Positions 2,877 to 11,324 of a stretch of 11,324 bases of DNA are shown one piece after another. The notes under the pieces are model-generated. The model had not been told where the DNA came from, searched no databases, and saw nothing but the letters and a program-made list of their open reading frames with translations. The stretch comes from Bacillota bacterium (GTDB lineage: Bacteria; Bacillota; Sulfobacillia; Symbiobacteriales; Symbiobacteriaceae). Position 1 is the stretch's first letter; each line of letters starts with the position of its first letter. The position numbers and the translations under genes are program-made. The stretch is from NCBI GenBank assembly GCA_028287415.1, contig JAQBPS010000459.1, positions 1 through 11,324 of the forward strand, given 5' to 3'.

Positions 2877-4109
2877 TCAGCGCTTGCCGCGCAGTCGATC
2901 CACCACCCACAGACAGAATGCAGCAAGGCCGAGCACCCCACCGAACAGGCTGACGGCCGTCCAGCCACCGGCGCCATACACAGCGGTACCCGCCGCAGAC
3001 CCTGCGGCGCCGCCCAGGAAGTAGCTCGTCATGTAGGCGCTGTTCACCCGGCTGCGGGCGTTTGGCGCCACCCGATAGATCTCACTCTGATTCAGCACGT
3101 GCATCCCCTGCGCTGCGATGTCCAGGAAGAAGATGCCCGCGATCATCGCCCACAGCTGGCTGCCGCCCAGCCATAGCACGGCGAACGACAGGCCGAGCAT
3201 GCCCGTGAAGAGGCCTGTCCCCCAGCCGGTGCCGCCACGGTCAGCGAGGCGCCCTGCATAAGATGCGGACAATGCGCCCATGGCACCGACCAGGCCGAAC
3301 AGGCCGATGACCGCCGCATTGTAGTGGTAGGGCGGCCCGGAGAGCACGAACGCAACAGTTGTCCAGAAGACGCTGAACGCAGCGAAAGCCAGGGCTCCGA
3401 ACGCCGAGCGCAAGCGCACCACCGGTTCATCGAGCAGGAGGCGCCCGACCGAGCGGATCGCTGCGCCGTAGTTCATTGGCGGTTTGGGCAGGTCTTCAGG
3501 CAGGCTCCGCCACAGGAGCAGGAAGAGGATTGCCATCAAGACCGCGGCGAGATAGTAGACCGCCTGCCAGCCCAGGACCTGCGACACCGCACCGGACAAG
3601 GTGCGGGCGCCGAGGATGCCGATCAGCAGGCCGCTGATCACCGTCCCGACGACCCGGCCGCGCTGTTCATCAGTCGCGAGCGAGGCCGCAAACGGCACCA
3701 TCACCTGGACAACGACGGAGGTGAGCCCTACCGCCAGGCAGCTGGCGATCAGCGCAGGGAACGTGGGGGAGAGGGAGACGGCAAGCAGTGCGAAGGGCGA
3801 CATGGCCAGCACCGACAGGACCAGCTTGCGGCGGTCGAGCATATCGCCGGCGGGCAACAGAAAGAGCAGCCCGAGCGCGAAGCCGAGTTGCGATGCGGTG
3901 ATCACCCACCCGGTGGCGGCCTCGCTGGTCTGGAATACCTGGGCGATGTGGTGGAGCAGCGGTTGCGCGTAGTAGAGGTTGGCGACGGCCATGCCGCAGG
4001 CGGTGGCCATGGTGAGCACGAGCGCCGGGGAGATCCCGGGCGCCGGCTTGGGGGTTGGATGCTGCTGTGACGCGGCCAAGATCAGGTTCACCTCTGGGTT
4101 TTGTGTCAT
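2877..4109 (-). CDS. Major facilitator superfamily transporter (12 predicted membrane segments)
   Basis: A 410-residue integral membrane protein with about twelve hydrophobic segments, the usual MFS_1 size. The first segment contains ANLYYAQPLL, and the loop after segment 2 holds GDMLDRRK (residues 88-95), which is MFS motif A. This pattern is common in drug/metabolite efflux carriers of the AraJ/YnfM-like type; the substrate is not predictable. ATG at 4109 is the only reasonable start, since no in-frame start lies upstream before the preceding gene. Its SD is weak (GAAG about 13 nt away), so translation may depend on coupling to or read-through from the GntR gene, which ends 64 bp upstream. 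The regulator-transporter pair on one strand suggests that the transporter handles the regulator's ligand or a product of the divergent enzyme. Confidence 0.88.
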   Translation of the reverse strand: MTQNPEVNLILAASQQHPTPKPAPGISPALVLTMATACGMAVANLYYAQPLLHHIAQVFQTSEAATGWVITASQLGFALGLLFLLPAGDMLDRRKLVLSVLAMSPFALLAVSLSPTFPALIASCLAVGLTSVVVQVMVPFAASLATDEQRGRVVGTVISGLLIGILGARTLSGAVSQVLGWQAVYYLAAVLMAILFLLLWRSLPEDLPKPPMNYGAAIRSVGRLLLDEPVVRLRSAFGALAFAAFSVFWTTVAFVLSGPPYHYNAAVIGLFGLVGAMGALSASYAGRLADRGGTGWGTGLFTGMLGLSFAVLWLGGSQLWAMIAGIFFLDIAAQGMHVLNQSEIYRVAPNARSRVNSAYMTSYFLGGAAGSAAGTAVYGAGGWTAVSLFGGVLGLAAFCLWVVDRLRGKR

Positions 4110-4173: not shown

Positions 4174-5181
4174 TCAGTGGGCCCTTCGTGCCGTCAGCTT
4201 GCGGCTGCGGATGTTGACGACGACCTGGCGCAGCAGCGCGATGCCGGCCTCATCCAGGTTGTTAGGGAACGGGATGATCCGGGTGGCCGCCGGAACTTTG
4301 CCCGCGAGGACCGCCTGTGCGTAGGCCGACAGCACCAGCACATCCGCTGTGGCGAGCACCGTCGCGACTTCGGACGGGTCCTCCGTCGACGCCTTCAGAA
4401 TGCTGAGCGGACGCCCCGGCAGCGCCCGTACGATCGACCGCTCCATCACCCGGGCGTCCTCCCATGATGGGCAGACCACACCGACGGCGGCAGCCGGCGG
4501 CAGCTTACCCAGCGCCACAGCGACCTCTACCATCTGATCCATCGCGAGGGTGTAGAGGGAGACGTGCGACGAGAAGTTCTCGCACAGGGCGGCCTCAACC
4601 TCCGGACGGTGGACCACCGGCGTCACTACCAGGTCCGCCTCACTCACAGTGTTACGGCATTGTGGAACACCCGCTTGCAAATCCGCAAGCAGGACCGGCG
4701 CGAACGGGATACCCAGATTCCGCTCCAGATCCTCCGCATAACAACGGGCTGTGGGCATGTTCGCCTCGATGATCACCCCGCGCAAAGCCACATCGGTGTT
4801 GGATCCCTGAAGACCGGCGCTGATCACGGCGGAAACGACATTCTCCAGCGGGATGCCTAGCGCCTGTGTGCGGAGGATGAAGCCATGGACCAGGGCGTCA
4901 AATGCCTTCCGATCGATGATGTTGGTCAGCCGCTTTGGCTCGCTGACGAACGCGCCGCGGCCCTGCTCCATGACGATGTAGCCCTCGTGCTCCAGCTCCT
5001 TGAGCGCCTTGAACACAGTGTTCTGGTTGACCCCGAGCGTCGCCGCGAGCTGGCGGATGCCCATGAGCCGGGCCCCGGGCGCCAATGTCCCCACGTTGAT
5101 TGCGGTTTTCAGCTGCTCCTTGAGCTGTACATACAGGGGCAGTTGGTAACGCTTGTTGATGACGAAACGTTCCGGTTGCAG
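4174..5181 (-). CDS. GntR-family transcriptional regulator with an unassigned C-terminal ligand-binding-like domain
   Basis: About 335 residues. The N-terminal 80 form a GntR winged helix: helix 1 (YQLPLYVQLKEQLK, near residues 12-25), GTLAPGARL, and the recognition region LGVNQNTVFKALKELEHEGY ending near residue 67. The in-frame GTG at 5094 would delete helix 1, so the true start must lie upstream. The reading frame closes at a TGA at 5190-5188, and the only sensible initiator after it is CTG at 5181, 9 nt from the GGAGG of a perfect eight-base SD (GGAGGTGA). The C-terminal 250 residues alternate helices and strands but match neither FCD, UTRA nor the MocR aminotransferase fold. They resemble a two-lobed alpha/beta binding domain, and I do not recognise the family. 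It is divergent from the coxG/molybdenum hydroxylase operon and upstream of the MFS gene, so it is likely the local regulator of both. Confidence 0.85.
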   Translation of the reverse strand: MQPERFVINKRYQLPLYVQLKEQLKTAINVGTLAPGARLMGIRQLAATLGVNQNTVFKALKELEHEGYIVMEQGRGAFVSEPKRLTNIIDRKAFDALVHGFILRTQALGIPLENVVSAVISAGLQGSNTDVALRGVIIEANMPTARCYAEDLERNLGIPFAPVLLADLQAGVPQCRNTVSEADLVVTPVVHRPEVEAALCENFSSHVSLYTLAMDQMVEVAVALGKLPPAAAVGVVCPSWEDARVMERSIVRALPGRPLSILKASTEDPSEVATVLATADVLVLSAYAQAVLAGKVPAATRIIPFPNNLDEAGIALLRQVVVNIRSRKLTARRAH

Positions 5182-5342: not shown

Positions 5343-5786
5343 ATGCGCATTGAGGGAAGCCGCCTTGTGAGAGCGCCCCGGGCTGCCGTGTGGGCAGCGC
5401 TGAACGATCCGCAGGTGCTGAAGCGGGTCACCCCCGGCTGCGAGCAGCTTGAAGCTGCCGGGGCAGATCAGTACAGCGTCACCCTGAAGGTGGGGGTGGC
5501 TGCAATCAAGGGCACCTTCAACGGGAGCATTCACGTGCGGGACAAGCAAGAGCCGGAGCGCTTTGTGATGGACGTCGCTGCCAGCGGTACGAGCGGCTGG
5601 GTCAAAATGACTGGCCAGGTGACCCTCATGGAGCAGGGCGGCGGTACGCTGGTCGCCTACGACTGGGACGTCCAGATCGGCGGGGCGGTGGCGGCCGTGG
5701 GGCAGCGGGTGGTGGGCGGCGTTGCCAAGCTCCTGATTGATCAGATGTTCGGCAAAGTCGATGCCGTGCTGGGGGGAGCGGCATGA
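5343..5786 (+). CDS. coxG: CoxG-like SRPBCC-fold protein (carbon monoxide dehydrogenase subunit G family)
   Basis: A 147-residue protein with the CoxG/SRPBCC pattern: an N-terminal RAPRAAVWAALNDP, VLKRVTPGCEQLE, an internal GTFNGSIHVRD strand, and a C-terminal amphipathic helix after GGAVAAVGQRVVGGVAKLL. There is no signal peptide, so it is cytoplasmic. In aerobic CO dehydrogenase clusters CoxG helps anchor the enzyme at the membrane, and recent work links it to quinone delivery. Here it leads a molybdenum hydroxylase operon whose Mo subunit does not look like CoxL in the part visible. GAGGAG at 5328-5333 supports the ATG at 5343. Its stop overlaps the xdhC start (ATGA), so the two are translationally coupled. 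A role in maturation or membrane recruitment of the hydroxylase is an inference. Confidence 0.87.
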   Translation: MRIEGSRLVRAPRAAVWAALNDPQVLKRVTPGCEQLEAAGADQYSVTLKVGVAAIKGTFNGSIHVRDKQEPERFVMDVAASGTSGWVKMTGQVTLMEQGGGTLVAYDWDVQIGGAVAAVGQRVVGGVAKLLIDQMFGKVDAVLGGAA

Positions 5787-6778
5787 CGGATAGTAGCATC
5801 CTGGAACTCGCGAAGGTGGCGCAATCAGGCAGGCGGGCGCTACTGGCGACAGTGATTCGGGCGAGCGGCCCGAGTTACCGCAAGCCGGGTGCCTCCGCCG
5901 TCGTTGCCGAGGACGGCGAGATCATCGGGGCAATCAGCGGCGGCTGCCTGGAAGCCGACCTGCTGGTGGCGGCGGAGGAGATATTGCGTGGGGCGCCGCC
6001 CCGGGTGCTGGAGTATGACACCTCGTCGGAGGAGGACCTGATCTGGGGTACCAGCAGCGGCTGCGGCGGACGTGTCCAGATTCTCCTGGCGCCTGTTCCG
6101 GCGGAACTCGTGTCAGCCGCACAGGCTGAACTGCGCGCCGGACGCGCGGTCGTGTTGCATACCTGCATCGCCCCGGGCCCCGACCTGGGCCGGCGCACGC
6201 TAGGCGGCGCCACCGCCCGGACCGAACCGTACTGGTACAGCGATGGCGAAACGATCTGCCACCAGCTGCTGGCACCGCCTGTAACGATGCTGCTCTGCGG
6301 GGCAGGCAACGACGCGCAGCCGGTAGCCAAACTGGCAGCGGCCGCCACGTTCCGGGTGGCCGTCGTCGACCACCGCGCCTCATGGGCGACGGCGGAGCGG
6401 TTTCCGGACGCCCAGGCGGTGATCGTCTGCCAGCCGGAGGAGCTGGACGCCCACTTGCCGATTCCGGCGGGCAGCTATGCCGTGCTGATGACCCATCACT
6501 ACCACAAGGACCTTGCGTACCTGAAGATGCTGCTTGAGCAGCCCGTGGCATACGTCGGGCTGCTGGGCGCGCGTGAGCGCTCACGGGCGCTGGTGCGGCA
6601 GCTGCTGCGGGAGCGCCCGGACCTGGGCGAGGCCGCCCGTACGCGGCTGCGGGCCCCGGTGGGCCTGGAGATCGGGGCGGACGGCCCGTTCGAGATTGCG
6701 CTGTCGATTGTGGCTGAGTTGGTGGCCGAGCGGGCGGGGATGCAAAAACAGGCGGGAGGTAAGTCACTTGCGCAATGA
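5783..6778 (+). CDS. xdhC: XdhC/CoxI-family molybdenum cofactor maturation protein
   Basis: 331 residues, the normal length for the family. The N-terminal XdhC_CoxI domain carries ISGGCLEAD (S52-G-G-C55-L-E) and a GTSSGCGGRV segment. The C-terminal Rossmann-like XdhC_C domain has LLCGAGND (about 170-177), VVDHR, MTHHYHKD (from residue 236) and VGLLGARERS. XdhC proteins bind molybdopterin and deliver its sulfurated form to xanthine dehydrogenase-family enzymes in the cytoplasm before the enzyme folds or is exported. This one overlaps coxG by 4 nt at its start. The TTG start of the following subunit lies inside its last codons, and the SD of that subunit is also within the xdhC reading frame. 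The placement points to a dedicated chaperone for the enzyme encoded next. Confidence 0.93.
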   Translation: MTDSSILELAKVAQSGRRALLATVIRASGPSYRKPGASAVVAEDGEIIGAISGGCLEADLLVAAEEILRGAPPRVLEYDTSSEEDLIWGTSSGCGGRVQILLAPVPAELVSAAQAELRAGRAVVLHTCIAPGPDLGRRTLGGATARTEPYWYSDGETICHQLLAPPVTMLLCGAGNDAQPVAKLAAAATFRVAVVDHRASWATAERFPDAQAVIVCQPEELDAHLPIPAGSYAVLMTHHYHKDLAYLKMLLEQPVAYVGLLGARERSRALVRQLLRERPDLGEAARTRLRAPVGLEIGADGPFEIALSIVAELVAERAGMQKQAGGKSLAQ

Positions 6779-7433
6779 CGGTGCCGACAGCAAGGGAGAG
6801 CCTGGCTCCGAACTGACCCGGCGGCGGTTCTTGAAGACGGCGGGCGTGGGCGTGGCGGTGCTGGGCGCCATTGGCGGCTGGAGCCTGCGGAGCAGCAAAC
6901 AGGCGACGGCGGATGCCGCGCCGAAGGCGGCCCCGGCGAAGGGGCCGCGCCAGCCGATCCAGCGGACGATTACCCTGCATGTCAACAACCGGGACTACCG
7001 CGTGATCGTGGACACCCGCGAAACCCTGGCGGAAGCGATCCGGGACAAGGTGGGGCTGACCGGTACCAAGGTCGGCTGCAACCACGGGCAATGCGGCGCC
7101 TGCACAGTGATCCTTGGCGGGCAGGCGGTCTATTCCTGCTCCACATTGGCCGTGCAGGCCGAGGGCGCAAAGATCACCACCATCGAAGGGCTGTCGCAGG
7201 GGGAGAAGCTCCACCCCGTCCAGGAGGCGTTCCTGGCCCACGACGCGTTCCAGTGCGGCATCTGCACGTCGGGCCAGATCATGGCATTGACCGCATGCCT
7301 TAACAACGCCCCCGGCAAGGTGACTGAGGAATCGATCAAGGCGGGCATGGGCGGCAACCTCTGCCGGTGTGGCGCCTATGTGCAGATCATCCGGGCGGGG
7401 CTCCAGGCGGCCGCGGCCATGGGGAAGAGCTAG
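6768..7433 (+). CDS. Tat-exported [2Fe-2S] small subunit of a xanthine dehydrogenase-family molybdenum hydroxylase
   Basis: 221 residues from TTG at 6768, with GGGAGGT (6754-6760) about 8 nt upstream; no in-frame ATG lies between this SD and the Tat motif. A Tat signal, TRRRFLK at 17-23 followed by a hydrophobic stretch to about residue 37, precedes an Ala/Pro/Lys linker. The plant-type ferredoxin domain has C104-x4-C109-x2-C112-x11-C124. The helical domain has C163-x2-C166 and C199-x-C201. These are the complete ligand sets for the two [2Fe-2S] clusters that carry electrons from the molybdenum site to FAD. Most small subunits of this family are cytoplasmic and lack a leader; a Tat leader is known in periplasmic aldehyde oxidoreductase PaoA. 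The start overlaps xdhC by 11 nt. The stop shares bases with the SD of the FAD subunit. Confidence 0.93.
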   Translation: MRNDGADSKGEPGSELTRRRFLKTAGVGVAVLGAIGGWSLRSSKQATADAAPKAAPAKGPRQPIQRTITLHVNNRDYRVIVDTRETLAEAIRDKVGLTGTKVGCNHGQCGACTVILGGQAVYSCSTLAVQAEGAKITTIEGLSQGEKLHPVQEAFLAHDAFQCGICTSGQIMALTACLNNAPGKVTEESIKAGMGGNLCRCGAYVQIIRAGLQAAAAMGKS

Positions 7434-7443
7434 GAGGGAAAGC

Positions 7444-8418
7444 ATGGAGAGTTTTGCGTACAGTAAGGCCGCGAACCTGCAACAGGCCCTGGATCTCCTC
7501 AAGTCAACCGAGGGCGCCCAGGTGGTGGCCGGGGGCAGCGACCTGCTCAGCCTGCTCAAGAATGAGGTGCTCACGCCCGAGGCGCTGGTCGATATCAAGG
7601 GCCTCGCCGACCTGAACTACATCAAGGATGAGGGCGGCGTCCTGCGCATCGGCGCAACCACGACCCTGACCGCGCTGGGCAACGATGCGGCCGTGCGGGA
7701 GCGCTTCCCGATCATCGCCCAGACCATTCCCCTGATCGCCTCCCCGCAGATCCGCAACCAGGCGACGGTGGCGGGGAACCTGTGCCAGCGGCCGCGTTGC
7801 TGGTACTTCCGCTCGGAACTGTACGACTGCTTCCGCAAGGGCGGGCCCACCTGCTTCGCAATCACAGGGCGCAATAGCGAGCACGCCATTTTCGGCGGCG
7901 CGGGCTGCTTTATCGTCCACGCATCTGACCTGGCCCCGGTGCTCATTGCGCTGAATGCGGAGATCGCCCTTCAGGGCCCCAGCGGCAAGCGGGTCCTGCC
8001 GCTTGAGGAGTTCTTCGTGCTGCCCAGGATGAACCCGCACGCAGAGAACCTGCTGCAACCGGGCGAACTGGTCGTTGAGATCCGGATCCCGGCGCCCGCC
8101 GCGGATGCGAAGGGCATCTTCGTGAAGACCCGCCTGCGCGGCTCCTGGGACTTCGCCGCCACATCGGTAGCGATGGTGGCACAGGTCCAGAACGGGACCT
8201 TTCAGGATGTCCGGGTCTGCCTGGGCGCAGTTGCTCCGGCGCCGTGGCGCTCCAAAGAGGCGGAGGCGGCGCTGAAGGGCCAGGCCGTCACCGCAGACGT
8301 GGCCGCCGCCGCTGCCAAAGCGGCGGTGCGATACGCACGGCCCATGTCCGAGAATGGCTACAAGATCCGCCAGATCCAGGCGATCATCAAGCGGGCCGCC
8401 CTGGCCCTCGCCAAATAG
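7444..8418 (+). CDS. FAD-binding middle subunit of a molybdenum hydroxylase, with a four-cysteine insertion (PaoB/YagS-like)
   Basis: 324 residues, the usual size of an FAD_binding_5/CO_deh_flav_C subunit. VVAGGSDLL near residue 30 binds the FAD pyrophosphate, and ASPQIRNQATVAGNL leads into the second FAD loop. That loop contains C114-x4-C119-x9-C129-x7-C137, in a GNLCQRPRCWYFR context ending near HAIFGG. This pattern is known from PaoB (YagS) and 4-hydroxybenzoyl-CoA reductase beta, where it holds an additional [4Fe-4S] cluster. The C-terminal third (TRLRGSWDFAATSVA...VCLGAVAPAPWR) is typical of the family. There is no signal peptide, so export would be by association with the Tat-bearing small subunit, as for PaoABC. 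ATG 7444 follows AGGAGG (7432-7437), which overlaps the previous stop. Confidence 0.92.
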   Translation: MESFAYSKAANLQQALDLLKSTEGAQVVAGGSDLLSLLKNEVLTPEALVDIKGLADLNYIKDEGGVLRIGATTTLTALGNDAAVRERFPIIAQTIPLIASPQIRNQATVAGNLCQRPRCWYFRSELYDCFRKGGPTCFAITGRNSEHAIFGGAGCFIVHASDLAPVLIALNAEIALQGPSGKRVLPLEEFFVLPRMNPHAENLLQPGELVVEIRIPAPAADAKGIFVKTRLRGSWDFAATSVAMVAQVQNGTFQDVRVCLGAVAPAPWRSKEAEAALKGQAVTADVAAAAAKAAVRYARPMSENGYKIRQIQAIIKRAALALAK

Positions 8419-8431
8419 GAGGTGCCATTTC

Positions 8432-9139
8432 ATGGCTGACGAGGAGAAGGATCAGGAGCAGGAGGGCGTCTCCCGCCGGAATTTCGTGGTCGCCGGCCTG
8501 CTGGCCGGGGGCGCCCTGGCGACCGGCCTGAGCAGCCTGCCGTTGCTCGCCATGGCGGAGACGCCCCGGCAGTCCGAGGGTGTGATCTGGCCGGACCCCT
8601 CGCTTTGCATCGGCTGCCTCATGTGCGAGCAGGCCTGCTCAGAGTGGCATGAGGCGGAGGGGCTCTCGCCTCTGCCCCGCATCCGCATCTTCCGAACGGA
8701 GACCGGCACCGTGAACCCGCAGGTCGCCGGGTTCTCCGGCGGCATCAGTTTCCAGCAAAGTCCCTGCAAGCAGTGTGCCGGCCCGGACTGTTACCCGGTT
8801 TGCCCCGCGGACGCGCTCAAGCTGGATGCGAAGACGGGTGCCCGCTATATCGATGAAAAGGTCTGCACCGGCTGCGGCAAGTGCGAGACCGCCTGCCCCT
8901 ACCCGATCACGGGGATTCTCCAGGCGACCCTGGAGGAGACGAAAATGAAGCGGATCTGGTACGACAAGGAGCGCAACGTCTACACCAAGTGCGACCTCTG
9001 CCGGGGCCGCGACGAGGGGCCGGCCTGCGTGCAGCGCTGCCCGGTGAACGTTGAGATTCGCGCCGGGCGGGTCAAGAGCGACCACCTTTGCCTGGACCTG
9101 AAGCCATCCACCCCGAACGCCATGAAAGAGATCCTGTAA
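8432..9139 (+). CDS. Tat-exported four-cluster [4Fe-4S] ferredoxin subunit (FdnH/DmsB-like)
   Basis: 235 residues from ATG 8432, supported by AGGAGGT at 8417-8423. A Tat signal, SRRNFVV at 14-20, with a hydrophobic stretch to about residue 42, precedes the mature ferredoxin. Sixteen cysteines form four complete cluster motifs: C59/62/65/69, C112/115/120/124, C145/148/151/155 and C187/190/199/203. This is the arrangement of electron-transfer subunits of the respiratory molybdo-enzymes (FdnH, DmsB, PsrB) and of ferredoxins linked to aldehyde:ferredoxin oxidoreductases, not of the xanthine dehydrogenase family. There is no C-terminal membrane helix, unlike FdnH. The gene lies between the FAD subunit and the cytochrome b genes, and its stop is within the next SD. 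It most likely carries electrons from the hydroxylase to the membrane hemes on the outer face. Confidence 0.92.
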   Translation: MADEEKDQEQEGVSRRNFVVAGLLAGGALATGLSSLPLLAMAETPRQSEGVIWPDPSLCIGCLMCEQACSEWHEAEGLSPLPRIRIFRTETGTVNPQVAGFSGGISFQQSPCKQCAGPDCYPVCPADALKLDAKTGARYIDEKVCTGCGKCETACPYPITGILQATLEETKMKRIWYDKERNVYTKCDLCRGRDEGPACVQRCPVNVEIRAGRVKSDHLCLDLKPSTPNAMKEIL

Positions 9140-9151
9140 GGAGGAGCGCTG

Positions 9152-10039
9152 GTGAACGGTACGTACGATGCTGGTCCATTGTTCGTCCTGAACCACACCT
9201 GGGCCAAGTGGATGCTCATCGCCCTGGGGGTGGGGATTGCGCTCGGGCTGTGGCGGCTCCTGTTCCGGCGCCCCGCGCAGCCATATGATCCGCGCACGGC
9301 CACGATCAAGCGGCACGCCGGGGGCATCGCCCTGGCCCACTGGATCAACGCCGTGGGCTTCATCCTTGCGTTGTACAGCGGTGCATCGCTGGTCCATGTG
9401 CTGCCGCGGTCGCTGTCCGAGGTCGCCTTGTACAAGCTGCACTATGTCGGGCTCAGCCTGATCCTGCTCTCGTTGCTGGCGGTGGCCACCCATCGTTTCG
9501 TGTACGGCGGGCATTCCTTCCGCTTCACAGCGGCCGATGCGCGTGCTGCGTTCAGCGAACTGTTTGTCTATGCGGGTCTCGTCGGCGACGAAGGCATCCT
9601 CGGCTTCCGGGCCCTCCAGTGGCCGGCAGCCTGGCGCCGGGGCACGGAGAAGGCGCTGGGGGCGCATGCCACGCACCGGACGGGCAAGTACCTTCCGACA
9701 GAGCAGGTGCTCTCCCTGCTGCCCTGGATCATCGTCATGGGCGCGATTGTGGCGACCGGCCTGATCAAGGGGCTGCGCTACCTGGTGCCCATCCCGCGCG
9801 GGGTGCTGGGCGTGGCGACGATCATCCACGACTGGGGTGTGTACGCCGGCGCCTTCATGCTGGTGGTGCATGTGGCGGCGCTTGTAGTCGTCCGCACCAA
9901 CTGGCCGCTGTTCATCTCGATGTTTACGACGAGGGTGCCTGCCCGCTATGCAGCCGAGCGCCACCCTGCCTGGTATAAGGATGTTGTGTCGAAGTCCCGG
10001 CCCCAGAAGGCCGAGGAGCCGGCTGTGAGGAGGGTGTAA
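9152..10039 (+). CDS. Membrane diheme cytochrome b, formate dehydrogenase-N gamma subunit (FdnI)-like
   Basis: 295 residues with five hydrophobic segments: about 18-38, 60-80, 93-113, 187-206 and 226-247. The last four match FdnI. Likely heme ligands are H63 in ALAHWINAVGF, H97 in KLHYVGL, and H226 and H240 in the last helix, 14 residues apart as in FdnI. The 120-190 loop with GKYLPTEQ parallels the FdnI GKYNAGQK region. The C-terminal tail RYAAERHPAWYK closely resembles the RWAKKHHPRWYR tail of E. coli FdnI. The extra N-terminal segment is not in FdnI and would place the N-terminus outside. The start is GTG, 7 nt after AAGGAGG. The protein should anchor the ferredoxin and pass electrons to (mena)quinone. 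Confidence 0.9.
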   Translation: MNGTYDAGPLFVLNHTWAKWMLIALGVGIALGLWRLLFRRPAQPYDPRTATIKRHAGGIALAHWINAVGFILALYSGASLVHVLPRSLSEVALYKLHYVGLSLILLSLLAVATHRFVYGGHSFRFTAADARAAFSELFVYAGLVGDEGILGFRALQWPAAWRRGTEKALGAHATHRTGKYLPTEQVLSLLPWIIVMGAIVATGLIKGLRYLVPIPRGVLGVATIIHDWGVYAGAFMLVVHVAALVVVRTNWPLFISMFTTRVPARYAAERHPAWYKDVVSKSRPQKAEEPAVRRV

Positions 10040-10040
10040 C

Positions 10041-11324
10041 ATGGCTGATGTACTTTCCATTGTCGGCAAGCGGCTGCCCCGCGTCGACGGACTGGACAAG
10101 GTGACGGGCCGCGCACAGTATGCCGGAGACCTGCGCATGCCTGGCATGCTCTACCTGAAGACCCTGCGCAGCCCGCTCCCCCACGCGAAGATCAAGAGCA
10201 TTGACACCAGCGCTGCCGAAGCGTATCCGGGCGTCATGGCGGTGCTCACGTACAGGGATGTGCCGAAAGTACCCCTGGAGGCGGACGACGAGGCGTCGCA
10301 GGGCGGGGGCAGCCAGGACCCCGGGGGCGTCGGCGTGCTTGACAGCACCGTGCGCTTTGTCGGCGACGAAGTTGCCGCGGTGGCGGCCGTCGATCGGCAC
10401 GCAGCGGAGGCGGCGCTGAAGCTGATGAAGGTGGAGTACGAGCCGCTGCCCTTTGTGCTCGATGCCGAGGAGGCGATGAAGCCGGGTGCGCCCATGGTGC
10501 GCACCGGTGGCAACCTGGTGGGCGGCAAGGCCGCCGTGATCAAGCGCGGCGACATCGACAAGGGCTTCGCGGAAGCAGACCTCGTCTACGAAGGCACCTA
10601 CGAAACGCCCCATGTCAGTGCGACGCCCCTTGAGCCGCGCTCGTGCATCGCGGACTGGCGCGGCGATCAACTGACGGTCTACAAGTGTGGTCGCAACGTA
10701 TACGGGGACCGGGCCACGCTGGCGAAGGTCTTCAGCCTGCCGCTGGACAACGTGCGGGTGGTCGGGCCGACGATCGGTTCCAGCTATGGGAACAAGGATG
10801 AGAGCCGCCAGGCGTTCATCGCAGCCTTGCTTTCGAAGAAGGCGGGGCGCCCGGTCATCAGCGAGTACACCCGCCAGGAGGAGCTGATCGCCGGCCGGTT
10901 GCGGCATCCGTCGAAGATCACGATCAAGATCGGGCTCAAGAAGGATGGCACGCTGACCGCCATCTACGGCAAATCAATCCTGAACACCGGCCCCTATGTC
11001 CCGGGCACGGGCGTCACCCGCCGCTCAGGCCAGGGCATCATCTACCTGTATACCTGCGCGAATGCCCGCTTCGACGGGTACACCGTCTACACGAATGCCC
11101 CGGTTGCCGGCTCTTTCCGCGGCCTCGGCGCCCCGCAGGGCCACTTCGCACTGGAGAGCCTGGTTGATCGGATCTGCCAGGAGCAGGGGTGGGATCCGCT
11201 GGAATTCCGCCTGAAGAATGGGGTCAAGCTGGAGGGCCAACCGGGACCTGCTTACGTGCCGAACGACACCTTTGTTGACGTACAGCCCGTGCAGGGCGGC
11301 ATACCGTTCTCGAGCAATGGCCTC
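10041..11324 (+). CDS. Molybdopterin-binding catalytic subunit of a xanthine dehydrogenase-family hydroxylase (cut by the window edge)
   Basis: The first 428 residues of a protein normally about 750-800 long; the frame is open to the last base. The N-terminal ald_Xan_dh domain is clear: GKRLPRVDGLDKVTGRAQYAGD, LRSPLPHAKI, VRFVGDEVAAVAA and VEYEPLPFVLDAEEA. The molybdopterin region begins with ETPHVSATPLEPRSCIAD. The usual GGGFGxK loop is replaced by G246-SSYGNKDE, and G357-SFRGLGAPQG matches the conserved FRGFGxPQ loop. The VAYRCSFR active-site loop of CO dehydrogenase is not present, so CO is unlikely as substrate. The catalytic glutamate near the C-terminus lies outside the window. There is no signal peptide. 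ATG 10041 follows GAGGAGGG (10027-10034) and comes 1 nt after the cytochrome b stop. The substrate (aldehyde, purine or N-heterocycle) is undetermined. Confidence 0.93.
   Translation, partial: MADVLSIVGKRLPRVDGLDKVTGRAQYAGDLRMPGMLYLKTLRSPLPHAKIKSIDTSAAEAYPGVMAVLTYRDVPKVPLEADDEASQGGGSQDPGGVGVLDSTVRFVGDEVAAVAAVDRHAAEAALKLMKVEYEPLPFVLDAEEAMKPGAPMVRTGGNLVGGKAAVIKRGDIDKGFAEADLVYEGTYETPHVSATPLEPRSCIADWRGDQLTVYKCGRNVYGDRATLAKVFSLPLDNVRVVGPTIGSSYGNKDESRQAFIAALLSKKAGRPVISEYTRQEELIAGRLRHPSKITIKIGLKKDGTLTAIYGKSILNTGPYVPGTGVTRRSGQGIIYLYTCANARFDGYTVYTNAPVAGSFRGLGAPQGHFALESLVDRICQEQGWDPLEFRLKNGVKLEGQPGPAYVPNDTFVDVQPVQGGIPFSSNGL

Follow-up and report, generated by a model that had tools for sequence, protein, structure and literature searches.

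The 11,324-nucleotide contig JAQBPS010000459.1 from a member of the Symbiobacteriaceae (assembly GCA_028287415.1), analyzed here over its entire length and called the window (contig C326 of genome G000), carries an operon that probably encodes a membrane-attached extracytoplasmic molybdenum hydroxylase reducing menaquinone via a module similar to FdnH and FdnI of formate dehydrogenase-N. The gene content, the conserved clustering, the cofactor ligands and the fold on which this proposal builds can be read from the sequences themselves. An initial annotation had suggested a membrane-bound respiratory hydroxylase, and the recurring gene cluster, the conserved ligands and the FdnI-like model of the cytochrome support the suggestion. 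The annotation also held that such a combination is not well described, and indeed no such system appeared among the open-access full texts listed, a corpus outside which most subscription papers lie; the open-access matches listed for Symbiobacterium with xanthine dehydrogenase likewise showed no description. For an uncultured member of the Symbiobacteriaceae, one report describes an antimony oxidase of the dimethyl sulfoxide (DMSO) reductase family which feeds quinone, and mentions xanthine dehydrogenase genes in passing (PMC11521347).

Gene organization

Seven genes follow each other on the plus strand in the order CoxG, XdhC, small subunit, flavin adenine dinucleotide (FAD) subunit, ferredoxin, cytochrome b and large subunit (Table 1). 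The CoxG gene overlaps the XdhC gene, which in turn overlaps the small-subunit gene, and the last five genes are spaced by 10, 13, 12 and 1 bases. Five contiguous genes between 6768 and 11324 had been annotated; these are present on one strand, tightly spaced and, except for the cytochrome, recognized by Pfam above cut-off, but the operon starts further upstream with the CoxG and XdhC genes, and the large subunit is incomplete, ending at the contig end after 428 amino acids (768 in its counterpart at locus L013). The assembly consists of 822 contigs and is 77.8% complete.

Table 1. Genes of the operon and its divergent neighbor, with positions in the window
Feature	Position	Strand	Evidence
GntR-type regulator, divergent from operon	4174..5094	-	Pfam GntR 42.0 bits, cut-off 27; start codon uncertain
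CoxG-like protein (SRPBCC), operon gene 1	5343..5786	+	Pfam COXG 89.6 bits, cut-off 22.2
XdhC-type molybdenum cofactor sulfuration/insertion factor	5783..6778	+	Pfam XdhC_C, XdhC_CoxI above cut-off
Small subunit, 2x[2Fe-2S]	6768(TTG)..7433	+	Pfam Fer2, Fer2_2 above cut-off
FAD subunit	7444..8418	+	Pfam FAD_binding_5, CO_deh_flav_C above cut-off; PDB relatives 5y6q_B, 5g5g_B
Four-cluster ferredoxin, twin-arginine N-terminus (SRRNF)	8432..9139	+	Several Pfam Fer4 models; 16 cluster Cys between 8606 and 9040
FdnI-like cytochrome b	9152..10039	+	Heme-type His 63, 97, 226, 240 (codons 9338, 9440, 9827, 9869)
Mo-binding large subunit, xanthine dehydrogenase family	10041..11324	+	Ald_Xan_dh_C 100.8, MoCoBD_1 224.7 bits

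The hydroxylase subunits

With a large subunit that has a/b hammerhead and molybdenum cofactor-binding domains, two [2Fe-2S] clusters and an FAD domain, all above the Pfam cut-offs, the enzyme belongs to the xanthine dehydrogenase (XDH) family. The small subunit has a twin-arginine signal (LTRRRFLK, at about 6813-6836), passes the TIGR01409 model for twin-arginine translocation (Tat; 23.9 bits, cut-off 16.7) and shares its cluster cysteines with Escherichia coli PaoA in an alignment. The FAD subunit contains an insert with four cysteines (C119, C129, C137 and C155, codons within 7798-7908) that are conserved in PaoB, where we take them to be the ligands of its cluster; the insert presumably holds a [4Fe-4S] cluster as well.

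The second cofactor domain is absent from the large-subunit fragment because the contig ends. The best PDB matches of the fragment are 3hrd_A and 1rm6_A. Contig C523 opens with the C-terminal half of a large subunit of this type and has no exact overlap with the window end; since nicotinate dehydrogenase and 4-hydroxybenzoyl-CoA reductase are the top two PDB matches for both fragments, the large subunit likely continues there. The region of the catalytic glutamate, placed with a motif that we assume to mark it in this family, lies beyond the window and reads GMGEPP at L015, GMAEPP by alignment of L013 and GVGEV at L037, the presumed continuation. Within the window, a loop at 10794-10850 reads GSSYGNK where the copies at L013, L015 and L021 have GGGFGSK, which may mark a different substrate.

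No NCBIfam equivalog cut-off was reached by the hydroxylase subunits, neither that of xanthine dehydrogenase XdhABC (313 of 916 bits for the large-subunit fragment, 497 of 780 for full-length L013) nor those of PaoA (181 of 322 bits), PaoC (165 of 1180 for the fragment, 400 of 1180 for L013) and the CoxL models (157 of 991 and 148 of 950 bits, fragment). Xanthine dehydrogenase proper and carbon monoxide (CO) dehydrogenase are ruled out by these missed cut-offs, and, with none of them reached, the substrate may be an aldehyde, an aromatic or an N-heterocycle. The XdhC protein likewise stays below the cut-off of XdhC_rel_AOR (178.8 of 350 bits).

The ferredoxin and the cytochrome b

The annotation of a four-cluster ferredoxin proved correct, several Fer4 models being above cut-off and all 16 cysteines being invariant in the sequences aligned (3/3 and 14/14). 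Four [4Fe-4S] clusters, a four-histidine diheme cytochrome b and its fold are shared with FdnH and FdnI (1kqf), the partners of a catalytic unit from the DMSO-reductase rather than the XDH family. Unlike FdnH, the ferredoxin has a Tat signal and stops after the region of the fourth cluster, lacking the C-terminal extension with its membrane helix; the NCBIfam formate dehydrogenase beta model was not reached (39.3 of 334.7 bits).

The four heme-type histidines are kept in 15/15 cytochromes and could be matched by context to His 18, 57, 155 and 169 of FdnI, which is also the best structural match of the predicted cytochrome structure (VIA-align). The description as an FdnI-like diheme cytochrome b thus stands except for the helices: the model has five long ones, with an extra N-terminal helix, compared with four membrane helices in FdnI. 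The score against Pfam Ni_hydr_CYTB is below cut-off (24.1 of 30.1 bits), whereas the L013 counterpart passes at 47.7.

Recurrence of the gene cluster

The five genes recur in the order small-large-FAD-ferredoxin-cytochrome in G003, a genome from the family of the window genome (f1), where a MobA gene and an XdhC-like gene follow, and in G476 and G475, both of another family of the class, the small subunit of G475 being cut by the contig start. The window genome contains a second copy, with the small subunit and the start of the large subunit on contig C52 and the remainder of the large subunit, FAD subunit, ferredoxin and cytochrome on C760; the two contigs are inferred to be neighbors because their ends share 10 bases. 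The usual order is thus small-large-FAD-ferredoxin-cytochrome, and that of the window is rearranged. A one-off insertion of the ferredoxin and cytochrome genes, which the initial annotation had named as a refutation of its proposal, is ruled out by these three genomes, the second copy and the three database contigs described below.

The clusters also bear on the idea that the hydroxylase is soluble and exported like PaoABC, the ferredoxin-cytochrome pair being a mere neighbor which serves another enzyme. The subunits do resemble those of PaoABC-type enzymes, which function without membrane subunits: E. coli PaoABC (5g5g) and the aldehyde oxidase 5y6q share with the window enzyme a Tat signal that none but the small one of the three subunits carries, the PaoB-like FAD subunit with four cysteines and the XDH-family large subunit, and many relatives of the FAD subunit were seen without such a cytochrome among the matches listed. 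The PaoABC cluster as annotated, however, lacks ferredoxin and cytochrome b genes, and the order FAD-ferredoxin-cytochrome is constant in all five clusters (window, C760, G003, G476 and G475) although the position of the large-subunit gene varies. In the window the two genes even sit between the FAD and large-subunit genes, and the formate dehydrogenase of this genome already has an FdnH-like gene of its own. We hold a soluble enzyme with an unrelated neighbor to be very improbable.

At 1e-30 the ferredoxin profile matched 4/154 genomes of the class, adding G475 and G476, and at 1e-40 it matched 1/398 genomes of the phylum, a list from which G003, G475 and G476 are absent. The cytochrome profile matched 49/398 phylum genomes at 1e-12, mostly over its C-terminal third; nine of these places were inspected, of which three lie beside aldehyde oxidoreductase (AOR) genes, one is in G243, where a fused XDH-type gene is found about 3 kb upstream in a non-adjacent position, and the rest have no XDH genes. 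A cytochrome search of genome contigs gave two weak loci, neither XDH-linked; the ferredoxin alignment had no relative among viral contigs, and the plasmid search returned only matches under 60% identity. Between G475 and G476 the ratios of nonsynonymous to synonymous substitution rates (dN/dS) are 0.12 for the small subunit, 0.22 for the FAD subunit, 0.16 for the ferredoxin, 0.22 for the cytochrome and 0.15 for the large subunit.

For co-occurrence in protein databases we used at least 10 cytochromes including that of the window, the best 120 of at least 6135 FAD subunits and the best 120 of at least 344 ferredoxins, and counted proteins as co-located when their source contigs have equal size, with 400 shifted controls. 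Among the 119 x 119 listed FAD subunits and ferredoxins (own proteins removed) there are 10 pairs (control mean 1.3, maximum 6), 8 of them on contigs of at least 3000 bases (control mean 0.30, maximum 3), while two short contig pairs of 2297 and 1910 bases lie within control expectation. Three of nine cytochromes pair with an FAD subunit among the matches listed (control mean 0.12, maximum 2). By size match, FAD subunit, ferredoxin and cytochrome come together on three contigs of 16175, 16342 and 35299 bases. Cytochromes P0007 and P0008 pair with ferredoxins and have no FAD partner among the matches listed. One ferredoxin of the same type is named as Symbiobacterium terraclitae, and therefore a cultured host may be available.

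As a side observation, ferredoxins P0204, P0214 and P0231 share contig sizes with the cytochromes P0007 and P0008 or, at chance level, with FAD subunit P0076, and some of their list neighbors are named Chloroflexota; an occurrence beyond this phylum is possible.

Ancestry of the ferredoxin-cytochrome module

Trees of 34 ferredoxin and 24 cytochrome rows, with midpoint roots and some long branches, each split the XDH-linked from the AOR-linked rows by one branch (100/97 with 13 rows for the ferredoxin, 99/99 with 9 rows for the cytochrome). These counts exclude rows of unknown linkage, some of which lie inside, and the rows taken as XDH-linked include the cytochrome of G004, a genome without an FAD match. 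In both trees the sister group consists of the pairs beside AOR genes in G084 and G252, the closest relatives of the module for which a catalytic partner can be seen; they agree in the cytochrome of about 300 amino acids and the twin-arginine ferredoxin and differ in the catalytic enzyme family and by a long branch in the ferredoxin tree; FdnH and FdnI branch further out. The AOR identity is based on Pfam AFOR domains in G084 and on an NCBIfam AOR match below cut-off in G084 and in contig C60 of G252.

Because these nearest relatives adjoin tungsten aldehyde oxidoreductases, the ferredoxin-cytochrome pair looks like a portable quinone adaptor. Going further, the Tat-tagged ferredoxin and five-helix cytochrome b might together form a menaquinone adaptor portable enough to have been combined with three unrelated catalytic families, the DMSO-reductase-type, tungsten AOR and XDH-type enzymes. 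The XDH version would then found a class of extracytoplasmic energy-conserving hydroxylases through which anaerobic or microaerobic bacteria could respire aldehydes, aromatics or N-heterocycles directly, and which would probably also occur beyond this bacterial class; this broader proposal is tentative and we give it somewhat less than even weight.

At L074 (3785-7558), L075 (5163-8933) and L076 (4815-8502) a cytochrome b gene is in a row with genes for a twin-arginine ferredoxin and a tungsten AOR-type enzyme, possibly encoding a membrane-bound or exported AOR with a related module.

Proposed electron path and alternative explanations

From the gene set we infer a complex, an electron path with quinone as acceptor, and energy conservation. 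XdhC would mature the molybdenum cofactor, and the small, FAD and large subunits would fold in the cytoplasm and be co-exported by Tat on the small-subunit signal, as we expect from PaoABC, whose three subunits reportedly leave the cytoplasm together on the signal of PaoA (PMC4273604). The ferredoxin would be exported on its own Tat signal. An organic substrate would then be oxidized at the molybdenum outside the membrane, and the electrons could pass from two [2Fe-2S] clusters to the FAD and the four-cysteine [4Fe-4S] cluster, the four [4Fe-4S] clusters of the ferredoxin and the two b hemes, which would reduce menaquinone near the cytoplasmic face as in formate dehydrogenase-N. In that enzyme menaquinone reduction at this face is electrogenic; the hydroxylase would likewise be electrogenic and supply half of a proton-motive redox loop.

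A number of observations weigh against such a respiratory hydroxylase. At the position of FdnI Asn110, which we take to be a quinone-site residue, 14/15 cytochromes have leucine and one has threonine; at that of Gln113, presumably near the quinone site, 13 have glutamate and two glutamine. No family model assigns the cytochrome above cut-off (NCBIfam formate dehydrogenase gamma, 25.8 of 115.85 bits). A third copy in the window genome (C788) shows just the small and large subunits before the contig end, and within the five genomes of family f1, G001 and G004 are without an FAD match and G002 has distant FAD matches only. In G004 the cytochrome lies at the start of a contig that begins inside an apparent ferredoxin gene. 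In G001 the cytochrome b of this type is truncated at its N-terminus (L012, 8321-9019), likely a relic of a lost hydroxylase and counted here as a remnant. For distant pairs, whose synonymous sites are highly diverged, dN/dS runs from 0.2 to 0.99 and is hardly informative, so that any claim of selection comes from one close pair. The genome search for NarG gave nothing above cut-off, and no second FdnI-like cytochrome was found for the genome's formate dehydrogenase, whose contig (C67) ends just past the FdnH-like gene. Finally, the operon contains CoxG, which in other enzymes acts as an anchor on the cytoplasmic side.

The replacement of FdnI Asn110, and 4-hydroxybenzoyl-CoA reductase as the top PDB match for the large subunit at L013, would also suit a reverse reaction, a quinol-driven reduction comparable to that of this reductase, or an extracytoplasmic acceptor other than quinone. 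The reducing power of menaquinol falls far short of reductions of this type, no c-type cytochrome gene was recognized in the window by Pfam, and the four heme-type histidines and the FdnI fold suit a quinone-facing diheme protein; we regard these alternatives as very unlikely.

CoxG as the first gene of the operon could instead point to a cytoplasmic hydroxylase tethered as in CO dehydrogenase, with the ferredoxin and cytochrome in a side role. The molybdenum CO dehydrogenase also belongs to the XDH family, has three subunits and a CoxG partner, and passes electrons to quinone; unlike the window enzyme it is cytoplasmic and has no ferredoxin-cytochrome b module, and its active-site cysteine motif, as we assume it to be, is absent from the window large subunit. 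The role of CoxG homologues in attaching dehydrogenases to the membrane (PMC11962113) speaks for a tether. Yet the small subunit passes the Tat model, the ferredoxin has a twin-arginine N-terminus, the counterparts are alike in this respect, and no CoxG gene was matched beside the clusters of G003, G476, G475 or C52/C760. A CoxG-tethered cytoplasmic enzyme therefore appears very unlikely. The CoxG-like protein itself has no export signal visible in its sequence.

Another PDB match, the aldehyde dehydrogenase 8gy3 of acetic acid bacteria, has an XDH-family large subunit as well; we take it to be a membrane-bound respiratory enzyme which, unlike the window system, has a c-type cytochrome subunit, no FAD subunit and no FdnHI-like module. 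Molybdenum hydroxylases are mostly viewed as serving catabolism or detoxification and passing electrons to soluble acceptors. If menaquinone is indeed reduced by the window system, hydroxylation or aldehyde oxidation would become a respiratory, proton-motive step via the quinone pool, and the modular build of respiratory molybdenum and tungsten enzymes would extend from the DMSO-reductase to the XDH family.

Genome context and neighboring genes

The window genome encodes TatC, a match to the VitK2_biosynth family (futalosine route to menaquinone) and cytochrome bd subunit I. Its formate dehydrogenase-N catalytic subunit is encoded separately on C67 with its own FdnH-like gene, and no DMSO-reductase-type gene was recognized in the window by Pfam; a remnant of a formate dehydrogenase is ruled out. 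The alpha gene on C67 (L040, 2188-5250) is in two frames with a stop between them that may be read as selenocysteine. A large-FAD-small set on C50 (L035, 17-5725) is near the CO dehydrogenase group models, below cut-off, and adjoins a cytochrome bd subunit I gene.

A simple scan gave no promoter-like sites on the plus strand; that the divergent GntR-type regulator controls the operon is only a guess. A major facilitator superfamily transporter gene (2877-4109) lies on the opposite strand, and a link to the hydroxylase substrate is possible. Further upstream, on the same strand as the operon, 208-2658 encodes a protein with a beta-propeller and a phosphoesterase that has no known link to the operon.

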